This document shows positions 13,907 to 18,266 of a stretch of 64,000 nt of DNA, piece by piece. Numbering within the stretch: position 1 is the first letter of the stretch; each line of letters starts with the position of its first letter. The stretch comes from Crocinitomicaceae bacterium (GTDB lineage Bacteria; Bacteroidota; Bacteroidia; Flavobacteriales_D; Crocinitomicaceae), in contig JAQWFQ010000014.1 in assembly GCA_029238665.1 (NCBI GenBank), positions 62,001 to 126,000 on the forward strand. Reading direction: 5' to 3'. The notes under the pieces were generated by a model. That model made no database searches. It was not told the origin of the DNA and was given only the letters and a program-made list of their open reading frames with translations. The translations under genes were made by a program, and so were the position numbers.

Positions 13907-16030
13907 ATGACGATAGATCAACAAACTTTAGAAGATTTAGAATTCACAACCTTACGCGATTGGCTACAAACCTATGCAATTGGCCTTACAGCAAAAGAAC
14001 GCTTGGGAACATTAAGCCCAATTAGAGGAAAAGAAAAAATCAAAATAGCATTACGCCAAGTAAATGAGCTTAAAAATATTCGCACCGAAGGAGAGCCATT
14101 TCCACACCTTGACTTTGAAGAATTAAAGGAAGAATTAAAGTTACTTCCCATAAAAAAAGCTTCAATACAACTGGAAGGATTTATGCGTATTCTTTACGCG
14201 TCACAAATTACAAATCGATTACTTTATTTTTTCAATAAAAGAGAAGGTGACTACCCTCTTTTATCAAAAGTTTTAGAACACACTTATTTTACTGAAGAAA
14301 TCATTAAAGCCATTGAAATGGTTTTTGACAAACATGGAAAAGTAAAAGACGACGCTTCTCCTGCGCTGTTTGAAATTCGAATGAATTTAAAAACTGTAAA
14401 AAAACAAATCAATCGAAACTTTGACAAAGCAGCACGAAAATTAATGAAAGACAATTTACTTGGCGACACCAAAGAAACATTCATTAATGACCGTCGGGTT
14501 TTAACAGTGTTATCAAACCATAAACGAAAAATACCTGGATCGGTTGTTGGCTCTTCCAATACAGGCAGTTTAACCTACATTGAGCCTGAGGTAAATATTG
14601 CGCTCAACAATGAATTTGAACTACTTCAAGACGATGAGCGTAAAGAAATCTTTAAAATACTTCAAGTTTTAAAAGGACAGCTACTGAGTCATATTGAATT
14701 AATTAAGGAGTATCAACAAGTACTTACTGAGTTTGATTTTATTAATGCAAAAACAAAGCTAGCCCTTCTGCTTGAATGCAACCTCCCTTCCATTATGGAA
14801 GATTTAGAGATGGAGCTCTTTGATGCCTACCACCCTATTCTTTGGAAAACAAATAAAGACCAAAAGAAAAACACCAAGCCTCAGTATATAAAGATGAATA
14901 AGTTTGCTCGTATGCTGGTCATTTCGGGACCTAATGCTGGAGGGAAAAGTATCACCTTAAAATCGGTCGGCCTACTTCAGGTTATGCTACAATCTGGGCT
15001 ACTTGTTTCTGTTGGTGCAAATAGTAAAATGTGCTTATTTGAAAACGTATTGAGTGACATTGGAGACAACCAATCCATCACCAATGAACTAAGTACATAC
15101 TCTTACCGCTTAAAACGCATGAATGAGTTTTTACAAGTTGCGAATAAACAAACCTTATTACTTCTGGATGAATTTGGAACTGGTTCTGACCCTGACTTAG
15201 GAGGAGCGTTAGCCGAAGTCATCTTTGAAGAGCTATACAACAAGAAAAGTTTTGGGGTAATTACAACACACTACAACAACATTAAATTAAAAGCCGACCA
15301 ATTGCGCAATGCTATTAATGGAAGCATGTTGTTTAATACAGAAACACTTGAACCAACCTATACTTTTTCAACAGGACAGCCCGGAAGTTCATTCACCTTT
15401 GAGGTAGCTAAAATAAATGGCATTCCCAGTAAGTTAATTGAAGAAGCAAAAAACAAGTTAGATCATAAAAAAGTACGAATGGATAAACTTCTGAATCAAC
15501 TTCAGAAGGAAAAAACATACTTGTCAAAACTAAACAAAGAACACATTGAAGCGCAAGATTTAGCTCAAAATGCACTTAACGAATATGAGCAAAAACGCGA
15601 TCATTATGATGCTAAACTGAAAAGCTTCAGGTCAAGTTCAGAGTCAAATCAACGGTTTATTCAAGCTGGAAAGAAACTCGTTAGCTTCATTGAAAAGTAC
15701 AATACAGCTACACGTAAAAAATCGATTAACAATGACCTGCTTGAAGAAGTAAGAAAATATTTAGCTGTTGAAAAATCTAAAACGGAAACTGCAAAACAAC
15801 TTCAAAAGAAAGAACAGTTAGCCAAACAAGGAAAAGGTAAGCGTAAAAAGAGTGCAAAACAAACTCCTGACATCCATCAAAAAGAGAAAATTGTTGTAGG
15901 CTCACGCGTTAAGCTAATTACCACTAAACAGATTGGGACCGTTGAAGAAATGAAAGGTGAAAATATTGTTGTTTCTTTTGGATTTGCGCGAATGAAAGTA
16001 GATAAATCGAAGCTTTCTTTCATTGATTAA
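13907..16030 (+). CDS. mutS2: MutS2-family ATPase lacking an Smr domain
   Basis: The 707-residue protein has the MutS core (helical lever and clamp, about 1-320) and ABC-type ATPase with Walker A SGPNAGGKSITLK near residue 345, signature-like STYSYRLKRM, and Walker B LLLLDEFGTGSDPD. A long charged coiled coil follows (about 515-640), then a short beta domain (KIVVGSRVKLITTKQ, to the end). MutS2 proteins act on recombination intermediates or on collided ribosomes, not on mismatches. The C-terminal Smr nuclease domain found in Firmicutes MutS2 is absent, and the protein is shorter than the usual 780 or so residues. The stop codon shares TTAA with the convergent LptF/G gene. Confidence 0.93.
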   Translation: MTIDQQTLEDLEFTTLRDWLQTYAIGLTAKERLGTLSPIRGKEKIKIALRQVNELKNIRTEGEPFPHLDFEELKEELKLLPIKKASIQLEGFMRILYASQITNRLLYFFNKREGDYPLLSKVLEHTYFTEEIIKAIEMVFDKHGKVKDDASPALFEIRMNLKTVKKQINRNFDKAARKLMKDNLLGDTKETFINDRRVLTVLSNHKRKIPGSVVGSSNTGSLTYIEPEVNIALNNEFELLQDDERKEIFKILQVLKGQLLSHIELIKEYQQVLTEFDFINAKTKLALLLECNLPSIMEDLEMELFDAYHPILWKTNKDQKKNTKPQYIKMNKFARMLVISGPNAGGKSITLKSVGLLQVMLQSGLLVSVGANSKMCLFENVLSDIGDNQSITNELSTYSYRLKRMNEFLQVANKQTLLLLDEFGTGSDPDLGGALAEVIFEELYNKKSFGVITTHYNNIKLKADQLRNAINGSMLFNTETLEPTYTFSTGQPGSSFTFEVAKINGIPSKLIEEAKNKLDHKKVRMDKLLNQLQKEKTYLSKLNKEHIEAQDLAQNALNEYEQKRDHYDAKLKSFRSSSESNQRFIQAGKKLVSFIEKYNTATRKKSINNDLLEEVRKYLAVEKSKTETAKQLQKKEQLAKQGKGKRKKSAKQTPDIHQKEKIVVGSRVKLITTKQIGTVEEMKGENIVVSFGFARMKVDKSKLSFID

Positions 16031-17103
16031 CGCTTTGCTTTTTGATACAGTAAATAAGCCAACCCTCCAAACATTACATTGGGTATCCAAACCGAGATTA
16101 CTGCTGGAAAACCTAAGTTTATTGCTGCAACCGTAGTAACCTTCATTGCAAAAATATAGATGAAAATAATCCCTAAACCAATTGCAATATTCATCCCTAT
16201 TCCACCTCGTTTTTTTCGGCTAGCAACAGCGATACCAATAATTGTCAAAACATAGGTTGCAAAAGGATATGATGTCCTTTGATACAGCTCAATTTCATAC
16301 ATTGGCACCATGGTAGAGCCCTTAAAACGTTCTCGTTCTATAAACTTCTTTAATTCAAAGTAGGTCATTGCTTCAGCTATGTTTTCACGCGTTGCCATCT
16401 CTTCAATACCAAATTGAAAATTCGTATCCAGAACAGCACCTTCAGTAAGTTCATCTGTTGGATAACCAACATTTCGCTTGTAATAGTTTTTTAACTGCCA
16501 CTTATCAGAACCAGCTGTATTTTCTGCTGTTGCAGCCTTAATAAAGGAAACAAGATCTCCCTGATCATTCCACTGCTCTATTACTAAATTATGAATCAGG
16601 TTATTTGATGCAGAATACGACTTAAAGTAAACAACTTGATTTCCTGGAAACTCTGCATGGTAATCTTGTACTGAAATTACATTTCTATAAAAACGTTCTT
16701 CAAAAGCTAATCTTGTTTTATTTGAACGAGGCATCACAAAATGATTAAACACCAATGATATCAGCATTAAAATTGTAGCAGCCACCATGTAAGGGCGAAC
16801 AAATCGACTGAATTTTCTACCGCTATTCCAAATGGGAATAATTTCAGTGTCTTGCGCCATTTTAGCTGTAAACCAAATTACAGAAACAAAAATAATCATC
16901 GACGAAAACATGTTTCCGTAGAACATGATAAAGTTTACATAGTATTCAAACACTACTTCATAAAGACTCGCATCATTTTCTATAAATTCACTGAGTTTTT
17001 CCGCAATATCAAAGACCGTCGCCAATAGCATAATCACCCCCAACATAAAAAAGAACGTTGTAAGGAATTTACGAATGATATAGCGATCGATTATTTTTAA
17101 CAT
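16027..17103 (-). CDS. LptF/LptG-type lipopolysaccharide export permease
   Basis: This 358-residue YjgP/YjgQ-family protein has three membrane helices near the N-terminus (starting IIDRYIIRKFLTTFFFML), a periplasmic beta-jellyroll-like region (about 115-270), and three C-terminal helices ending in YLLYQKAKR. LptF and LptG form the inner-membrane channel that, with LptB2C, extracts LPS and pushes it to the Lpt bridge. Its start directly abuts the tgt stop codon, so the two are co-transcribed. Which of LptF or LptG it is cannot be told safely; it looks LptG-like by the short coupling region, and the partner is not in this window. Confidence 0.88.
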   Translation of the reverse strand: MLKIIDRYIIRKFLTTFFFMLGVIMLLATVFDIAEKLSEFIENDASLYEVVFEYYVNFIMFYGNMFSSMIIFVSVIWFTAKMAQDTEIIPIWNSGRKFSRFVRPYMVAATILMLISLVFNHFVMPRSNKTRLAFEERFYRNVISVQDYHAEFPGNQVVYFKSYSASNNLIHNLVIEQWNDQGDLVSFIKAATAENTAGSDKWQLKNYYKRNVGYPTDELTEGAVLDTNFQFGIEEMATRENIAEAMTYFELKKFIERERFKGSTMVPMYEIELYQRTSYPFATYVLTIIGIAVASRKKRGGIGMNIAIGLGIIFIYIFAMKVTTVAAINLGFPAVISVWIPNVMFGGLAYLLYQKAKR

Positions 17104-18234
17104 CTACAGACGACTCTCCAATTTTTGTACCATTTGATTTTTCCAAGAAGTAAATGTCCCTTCTTTAATTTTTAAACGTGCTTCCTTAACCAACCAAAGG
17201 TAAAAAGCAAGGTTGTGAACTGTAGCAATTTGAATACCCAAATGCTCTTTAGAACGCATTAAATGTCTTAAATACGCCTTGCTATATGTTGAATCCACAA
17301 AAGATGTTCCGTTTGGATCTAATGGTGAAAAATCTTTCTCCCATTTTTTATTTTTTATATTAATAATCCCCTCTGATGTGAACAACATTCCGTGTCGTGC
17401 ATTTCTTGATGGCATTACACAGTCAAACATATCTATACCCAGCGCTATACACTCCAAAAGATTAGCTGGAGTACCAACTCCCATCAGGTATCTTGGTTTT
17501 TCTGTAGGTAAAATATTACAAACAACATCTGTCATTGCGTACAACTCCTCTGCAGGCTCACCAACAGAAAGCCCACCAATCGCGTTCCCTACAGCATCAT
17601 GCGACGCAATCGTTTCTGCAGACTCTGTTCTTAAATCTTTATAAACACTCCCTTGAATAATTGGAAACAATGCTTGTTCATGCCCATACTTAGGTTCTGT
17701 ACGATCCATTTGAGTGAAACAACGCTTTAGCCAACGGTGCGTCATGTGCATTGACCTTTTAGCATAGTCATAATCACACGGGTAAGGTGTACACTCATCA
17801 AAAGCCATAATAATATCAGCACCTATTGAACGTTGAATGTCTATCGCTCTTTCTGGAGAGAAAAAATGATAACTTCCATCAATGTGTGATTGAAATGTAA
17901 CTCCCTCTTCTTTTATTTTACGCGCACCTGACAATGAATACACTTGATAACCTCCACTATCTGTAAGAATTGGTTTGTTCCAATTCATAAATTTATGCAA
18001 GCCTCCCGCTGGTTCTAACACATCCAATCCAGGCCTTAAAAATAAATGATAGGTGTTTCCTAAAATAATTTGGGCTTTAATATCCTCCTCAATTTCGTGC
18101 TGATGAACCCCCTTAACCGTACCCGCTGTACCTACAGGCATAAATATTGGAGTTTCAATAATTCCATGGTCTGTGTGTAGTTCACCAACTCTCGCTTTTG
18201 ACTGACTATCAGTGAGTTCTAATTTGAAGTGCAT
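17104..18234 (-). CDS. tgt: tRNA-guanine transglycosylase (Tgt), zinc cysteines replaced
   Basis: Tgt exchanges guanine-34 for preQ1 in tRNAs with GUN anticodons. Conserved parts of the 376-residue protein are the general base in LTDSGGYQVYSL (D92), the substrate pocket IIQGSV, GGLSVGE, and the nucleophile in FDCVMPSRNARHG (D271). The zinc site, normally C-x-C-x2-C followed by a His, reads DPNGTSFVDSTYSKAYL here: none of the three cysteines remains, though the later His (VHNLAFY) does. I recall the same substitution in other Bacteroidota. The start at 18234 is favoured over 18261 because a -7 box lies between them and the upstream residues are not family-like. Confidence 0.95.
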   Translation of the reverse strand: MHFKLELTDSQSKARVGELHTDHGIIETPIFMPVGTAGTVKGVHQHEIEEDIKAQIILGNTYHLFLRPGLDVLEPAGGLHKFMNWNKPILTDSGGYQVYSLSGARKIKEEGVTFQSHIDGSYHFFSPERAIDIQRSIGADIIMAFDECTPYPCDYDYAKRSMHMTHRWLKRCFTQMDRTEPKYGHEQALFPIIQGSVYKDLRTESAETIASHDAVGNAIGGLSVGEPAEELYAMTDVVCNILPTEKPRYLMGVGTPANLLECIALGIDMFDCVMPSRNARHGMLFTSEGIINIKNKKWEKDFSPLDPNGTSFVDSTYSKAYLRHLMRSKEHLGIQIATVHNLAFYLWLVKEARLKIKEGTFTSWKNQMVQKLESRL

Positions 18235-18258: not shown

Positions 18259-18266
18259 CAAAGATA
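18259..18266 (-). promoter_or_regulatory. Putative -7 box for tgt-lptF/G
   Basis: Read on the minus strand the site is TATCTTTG, an exact TAnnTTTG match, 24 bases upstream of the tgt ATG at 18234. It helps reject the longer reading frame starting at 18261. Confidence 0.55.

Follow-up and report, generated by a model that had tools for sequence, protein, structure and literature searches.

A tRNA guanosine(34) transglycosylase of the class Bacteroidia with no cysteine in its zinc loop

Introduction

Can a tRNA guanosine(34) transglycosylase (Tgt) that carries none of the three zinc-binding cysteines still be a working enzyme, and what would then hold its zinc loop in place? The question is raised by a tgt gene of a Crocinitomicaceae bacterium, found in the window, i.e., the whole 64,000-nucleotide stretch of DNA analyzed here. 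In passages of the published literature, the zinc-binding domain is presented as a hallmark of the Tgt family (PMC6165067), the zinc-binding residues are called highly conserved (PMC4425180) and TGT is said to require zinc for activity (PMC9508795), the last of which counts against reading the window enzyme as zinc-free. As far as those passages go, the statements on requirement and conservation (PMC9508795; PMC4425180) rest on other lineages. A search of the open PMC literature, judged by titles, abstract starts and passages, listed no publication that deals with a lost zinc site in Tgt; the loss may already be taken into account in the annotation of UniProt or HAMAP.

The tgt gene and its zinc loop

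The features considered are listed below, with counts taken from the 220 class sequences described in the next section.

16027 to 17103, minus strand: gene of an LptF/LptG-family permease (PF03739, 195.5 bits), directly downstream of tgt and abutting it
17104 to 18234, minus strand: tgt, tRNA guanosine(34) transglycosylase, 376 amino acids from the ATG at 18234
17215 to 17217, minus strand: His340, at the position of the fourth zinc ligand, which is retained (209 of 220 class sequences have His)
17287 to 17319, minus strand: DPNGTSFVDST, residues 306-316, corresponding by alignment to the Cys-x-Cys-x2-Cys stretch of zinc-type Tgt
17293 to 17295, minus strand: Asp314, where zinc-type Tgt has its third cysteine (of 220 class sequences, 186 have Asp and 23 have Ser)
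17422 to 17424, minus strand: Asp271, at the position of the Zymomonas catalytic nucleophile Asp280
17959 to 17961, minus strand: Asp92, at the position of the Zymomonas catalytic Asp102

By family, the window enzyme is an ordinary Tgt, which matches the full-length profile TIGR00430 with 503.9 bits (curated cut-off, 306.75) and the Pfam TGT profile PF01702 with 535.2 bits (cut-off, 26.3). By function it is probably ordinary as well, with base exchange at tRNA position 34 as its predicted activity, and its zinc-less form is a variant. A TTG at 18261, 9 codons upstream of the ATG, is listed as an alternative start. A profile search of its own genome (completeness, 98.45%) gave one match, i.e., tgt is present as a single copy, and the same order of tgt and the LptF/LptG gene is annotated in Parabacteroides and Bacteroides.

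The protein was aligned with two types of PDB chain, 10fb, which agrees in its letters with the E. coli row, and a Zymomonas-type chain. G309, S311 and D314 lie under the three zinc cysteines with no gap in the loop, and H340 aligns with the zinc-ligand histidine, His349 of Zymomonas. By this alignment, the ligand set of the zinc-containing Tgts, which have one structural zinc per monomer and Cys-x-Cys-x2-Cys plus His as its ligands, is absent from the window Tgt, in which G309, S311, D314 and H340 occupy the four positions. The six cysteines that it does have (148, 153, 172, 239, 262 and 272) all lie outside the loop. The original prediction, that DPNGTSFVDST has no zinc cysteine while Asp92, Asp271 and a later histidine are present, is thus borne out, including its residue range; only the window position given there, 17288-17326, is corrected to 17287-17319.

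All the preQ1-pocket residues are present (Y96, D146, C148, Q194, V224 and M251); their counterparts in Zymomonas Tgt are Y106, D156, C158, Q203, V233 and M260, a list partly echoed in PDB titles. The dimer hot-spot positions F92, W326, Y330 and H333 correspond, by alignment, to F82, Y317, Y321 and H324 of the window Tgt, with Tyr in place of Trp at a variable position that is Tyr in 200 of the 220 class sequences. W326, Y330 and H333 are described as a homodimer hot spot in a passage of one study (PMC5395182), and the catalytic roles of Zymomonas Asp102 and the nucleophile Asp280 in a passage of another (PMC6165067).

Distribution within Bacteroidia

The genome of the window was assigned to the class Bacteroidia by the named rows within the sample. 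The class sample of 220 sequences consists of those from 135 genomes (58 family codes), 80 named loci of genome_contigs, which may repeat some of the 135 genomes, 3 named records of a plasmid collection and 2 second copies. Positions 309, 311, 314 and 340 were scored, with CCCH denoting a complete site. Two copies of the window gene (L001 and L002) were removed before counting, and a fragment that ends short of the loop (G268) is in no count.

No complete site was found in any of the 135 genomes or the 220 sequences: all three cysteines are missing from 203 sequences, 17 retain a single one and none has two or three. As CCCH is found in 9 of 11 sequences of other phyla, this absence is far from chance, and, judged by the sequences of its relatives, the loss in the window Tgt is not local decay. 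Asp271 is found in all 220 sequences and Asp92 in 218, the other two being gaps. Tgt itself is present in 114 of 119 genomes of the class.

The remaining positions vary more. Ser, Thr or Asn occupies position 314 in 31 of the 220 sequences, and Gln or Ala occupies position 340 in 11. The loop is shorter by 4 or 7 residues in 11 sequences of four families (f54, f78, f82 and f90), where the alignment at position 314 is uncertain; in these sequences the catalytic aspartates are in place, as are the pocket residues that were checked, except for Phe instead of Tyr96 in 3 of them, a common variant. In one further sequence the loop is one residue shorter, and in another two residues longer.

Three sequences of family f82 (L379, L380 and L381), which at 48-51% identity are some of the most divergent in the class sample, combine a loop shortened by 7 residues with Ala for His340 and intact catalytic residues. 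Genome G205 has, in addition to a normal Tgt, a second, divergent copy (L382, 38% identity) whose four positions read Ser-Cys-Asn-His. Four named loci (L033, L054, L056 and L102) are from metagenome-assembled genomes and may be mislabelled as to species (Chryseobacterium gleum, Chitinophaga pinensis and Bacteroides): L033 shares 80% identity with the window gene, and the Tgt tree places L102 with rows of family f8.

Distribution outside Bacteroidia and phylogeny

In the phylum sample, Tgt was found in 146 of 148 genomes with one match in each of the 146, and the other classes of the phylum have CCCH in 27 of 109 genomes, which belong to eight family codes. Families f13, f15 and f26 were identified as green sulfur bacteria by the FMO protein, which is present in 36 of 36 genomes. 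Of their 35 Tgts, 34 keep only the third cysteine and have Phe at the first position; the fourth ligand is Gln in 25 and His in 9 of these 34, and Gln in 26 and His in 9 of all 35. In several other families of the phylum the first position is Leu and the third is Ser, together with Gln. Among the 11 sequences of other phyla, the two exceptions to CCCH are Sinorhizobium meliloti and Methylobacterium, with Asn for the histidine; Shinella agrees with both in its lost zinc site, while CCCH is present in Paracoccus, Sphingomonas, Magnetococcus and Acetoanaerobium. The original prediction of a clade in Bacteroidota that has lost the site is supported for the class, but neither for the phylum, whose other classes partly keep the site, nor as a boundary of the loss, which is also found in S. 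meliloti, Methylobacterium and Shinella.

Mapping the loss on a tree, a check that had been proposed with that prediction, gave at least five changes between CCCH and other states on an unrooted tree of 159 of the 240 rows, built by a quick method, and six on a tree of 120 rows that had long branches. The trees were built without the loop columns and position 340, and neither root nor direction was inferred from them; they do not include Shinella, Sphingomonas, Magnetococcus or Acetoanaerobium. Since CCCH is common to distant phyla, the direction is more simply read as loss. S. meliloti and Methylobacterium branch together next to Paracoccus, a CCCH type, and, on the sequences of three genera including Shinella, Hyphomicrobiales appear to have lost the zinc site independently.

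A scan of viral_contigs found no viral relative of this Tgt. Twenty phage-labelled records with Tgt, most of them unannotated and possibly host DNA, were not used; several short, unannotated ones carry a tgt of the ordinary bacterial type. As a detector, a DNA pattern of the zinc motif performed poorly and was rejected, as it matched 13 of 283 loci and missed many CCCH sequences.

The repeated changes on the 159-row tree also bear on zinc sparing, i.e., selection of the zinc-less form of Tgt under zinc scarcity, an idea proposed for cysteine-less ribosomal protein paralogs. Several changes would fit such an adaptation, but no second, zinc-dependent copy was seen: each of the 146 Tgt-bearing genomes of the phylum sample has one match, the second copies in 2 of 114 class genomes (G205 and G304) both lack CCCH, and a further case (G218) consists of two fragments. 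Drift through intermediates with one cysteine fits the pattern equally well, and we consider zinc sparing unlikely.

Predicted structure and the replacement of zinc

A structure prediction of the loop, which had also been suggested as a check, was obtained with AF2 from 52 of 81 aligned rows. The model has a mean pLDDT of 90 and is predicted to have the TIM-barrel fold of Tgt. Its ten-residue blocks between 301 and 340 score 93-96, with a short helix at 312-316, although AF2 ignores metals and this confidence is no proof of order without metal; blocks 31-40 and 91-110 are lower, at 61-69. The top PDB matches of the model are the zinc-type Zymomonas Tgt (Z about 51; rmsd, 1.5-1.8). Given the scores of the loop blocks and this match, the prediction is that the shape of the subdomain is retained.

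We propose that the window enzyme is a functional Tgt of the queuosine pathway whose C-terminal subdomain would have no zinc at the canonical site, while the TIM barrel, catalysis by Asp92 and Asp271 and the preQ1 pocket would all be unchanged. Packing and hydrogen bonds would take over from zinc in closing the former zinc loop (about residues 301-318), and in the lineage of the window Asp314 may hydrogen-bond to His340, where the third cysteine and the histidine once shared the metal. Tyr317, Tyr321 and His324, in the helix after the loop, would still be offered for the homodimer contact, although the variation at Tyr317 counts against this reading.

Asp314 is accompanied by His340 in 184 of the 186 class sequences that have it, related sequences not being independent. 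In the first 184 rows compared, Cys or Asp at position 314 was accompanied by His in 145 of 146 cases; once 56 rows had been added, Cys-Gln pairs numbered 26 in all, 25 of them in FMO-bearing families, and in independent pairs on the tree the coupling of positions 314 and 340 was not significant (median p, 0.125-0.5). A strict coupling was consequently dropped, and the Asp314-His340 contact is kept as a proposal only. Since there are families with a shortened loop, no single replacement contact seems to be required.

Retention of His340 in 209 of the 220 class sequences counts against the proposed packing and hydrogen bonds, as this histidine could also be left over from weak metal binding. 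The site might still bind a metal, perhaps zinc, iron or manganese, more weakly and through oxygen ligands, with Asp314 (kept in 186 sequences), Ser311, His340 and water. Such a site would have to cope with the 31 sequences with Ser, Thr or Asn at position 314, the 11 with Gln or Ala at position 340 and the 11 shortened loops with their uncertain alignment at 314, and an Asp/Ser/His set would be unusual for a structural zinc. We regard it as quite unlikely and infer that the window Tgt contains no metal.

It had been noted with the original prediction that cysteines elsewhere in the protein might form the site. A metal site relocated to Cys148, Cys153, Cys172 and Cys272 would be in keeping with their conservation, which was counted on 120 class sequences first and then on all 220 (Cys272 in 220, Cys148 in 219 with one gap, Cys172 in 205 and Cys153 in 192), but Cys148 and Cys272 are near universal in CCCH-type Tgts as well, Cys172 and Cys153 are found in 16 and 25 of 36 CCCH sequences, respectively, and both are missing from some class sequences. 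As the CCCH sequences have them too, none of these cysteines is specific to the zinc-less forms; their pattern does not resemble that of a relocated site, which we consider highly improbable.

Selection on tgt and the queuosine pathway

In five pairs of class relatives to which the window gene does not belong, dN of tgt is 0.009-0.046 and dS is 0.50-2.6, and tgt is under strong purifying selection in these pairs. Between the window gene and its nearest row (L032) dN is 0.079, and between it and another row 0.162, with synonymous sites saturated in both comparisons.

QueA and QueG, both confirmed as equivalogs, were found in the genome of the window, together with four tRNAs with GUN anticodons (Asp GUC, Asn GUU, His GUG and Tyr GUA), whereas searches of the same genome for QueF, QueC and YhhQ found none of the three. 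A weak QueF match there is FolE, and a QueC match of 25.2 bits, flagged over the cut-off, is TilS. QueF was over the cut-off in 0 of 37 class genomes tested and in 9 of 60 genomes of the order, two of which are marginal at the 27.3-bit cut-off and likely FolE. Tgt, QueA and QueG without QueF are read as preQ1 salvage in a passage of one paper, with Bacteroidetes among the main Q-sinks (PMC10570037), and many gut genomes are counted with such a salvage pattern in a passage of another (PMC6593275). From the gene content of this genome, preQ1 would have to enter the cell by import, for which YhhQ gave no match.

These data bear on the caveat, also raised with the original prediction, that the gene might not be functional for want of queuosine: a decaying gene in an organism that makes none would agree with the missing QueF, QueC and YhhQ, but the low dN between relatives, the presence of QueA, QueG and the four GUN tRNAs, and the published salvage reading of this gene set all argue for a functional pathway and leave decay very doubtful. 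A working Tgt in which packing and hydrogen bonds, instead of zinc, hold the C-terminal subdomain is, in our judgment, very probably the right explanation.

Implications

Because every class relative examined also has no complete site, zinc looks replaceable rather than essential. We think it probable that structural zinc is a replaceable staple of Tgt: Bacteroidia would have dropped the ligands altogether, other lineages would represent intermediates with one cysteine, some families would have gone on to shorten the loop and Hyphomicrobiales would have lost the site on their own, so that the statement that Tgt is a zinc enzyme would be true of only part of bacteria. With a large bacterial class that lacks the zinc ligands, nature offers a way to test whether the zinc serves folding, dimer contact or RNA binding. 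Annotation based on zinc, or inhibitors directed at the zinc site, would not be expected to carry over to Bacteroidia.

Comparison with known Tgt systems

The Tgt of Zymomonas mobilis (PDB 1pud and 1q2r) is 46-48% identical to the window Tgt over nearly the whole length. Together with the E. coli-like Tgt (10fb), it shares with the window Tgt the fold, predicted for the latter, the catalytic aspartates and the preQ1-pocket residues, and the dimer positions are, by alignment, aromatic or His; the difference lies in Cys-x-Cys-x2-Cys, in place of which the window Tgt has G309, S311 and D314. The Tgts of S. meliloti, Shinella and Methylobacterium (Hyphomicrobiales) are likewise without a complete zinc site, but they keep the second cysteine and have Ser at the first position, Thr or Ala at the third and Asn for the histidine. 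Those of green sulfur bacteria (f13, f15 and f26), from the same phylum as the window, also have an incomplete site, in which, unlike in the window Tgt, Phe replaces the first cysteine, the third is kept in 34 of 35 and the fourth ligand is Gln (26) or His (9). Human QTRT1/QTRT2 belongs to the same enzyme superfamily and differs in having the zinc site, with Cys317, Cys319, Cys322 and a His as the ligands of QTRT1 in a passage of PMC6165067, and in using queuine as its substrate.
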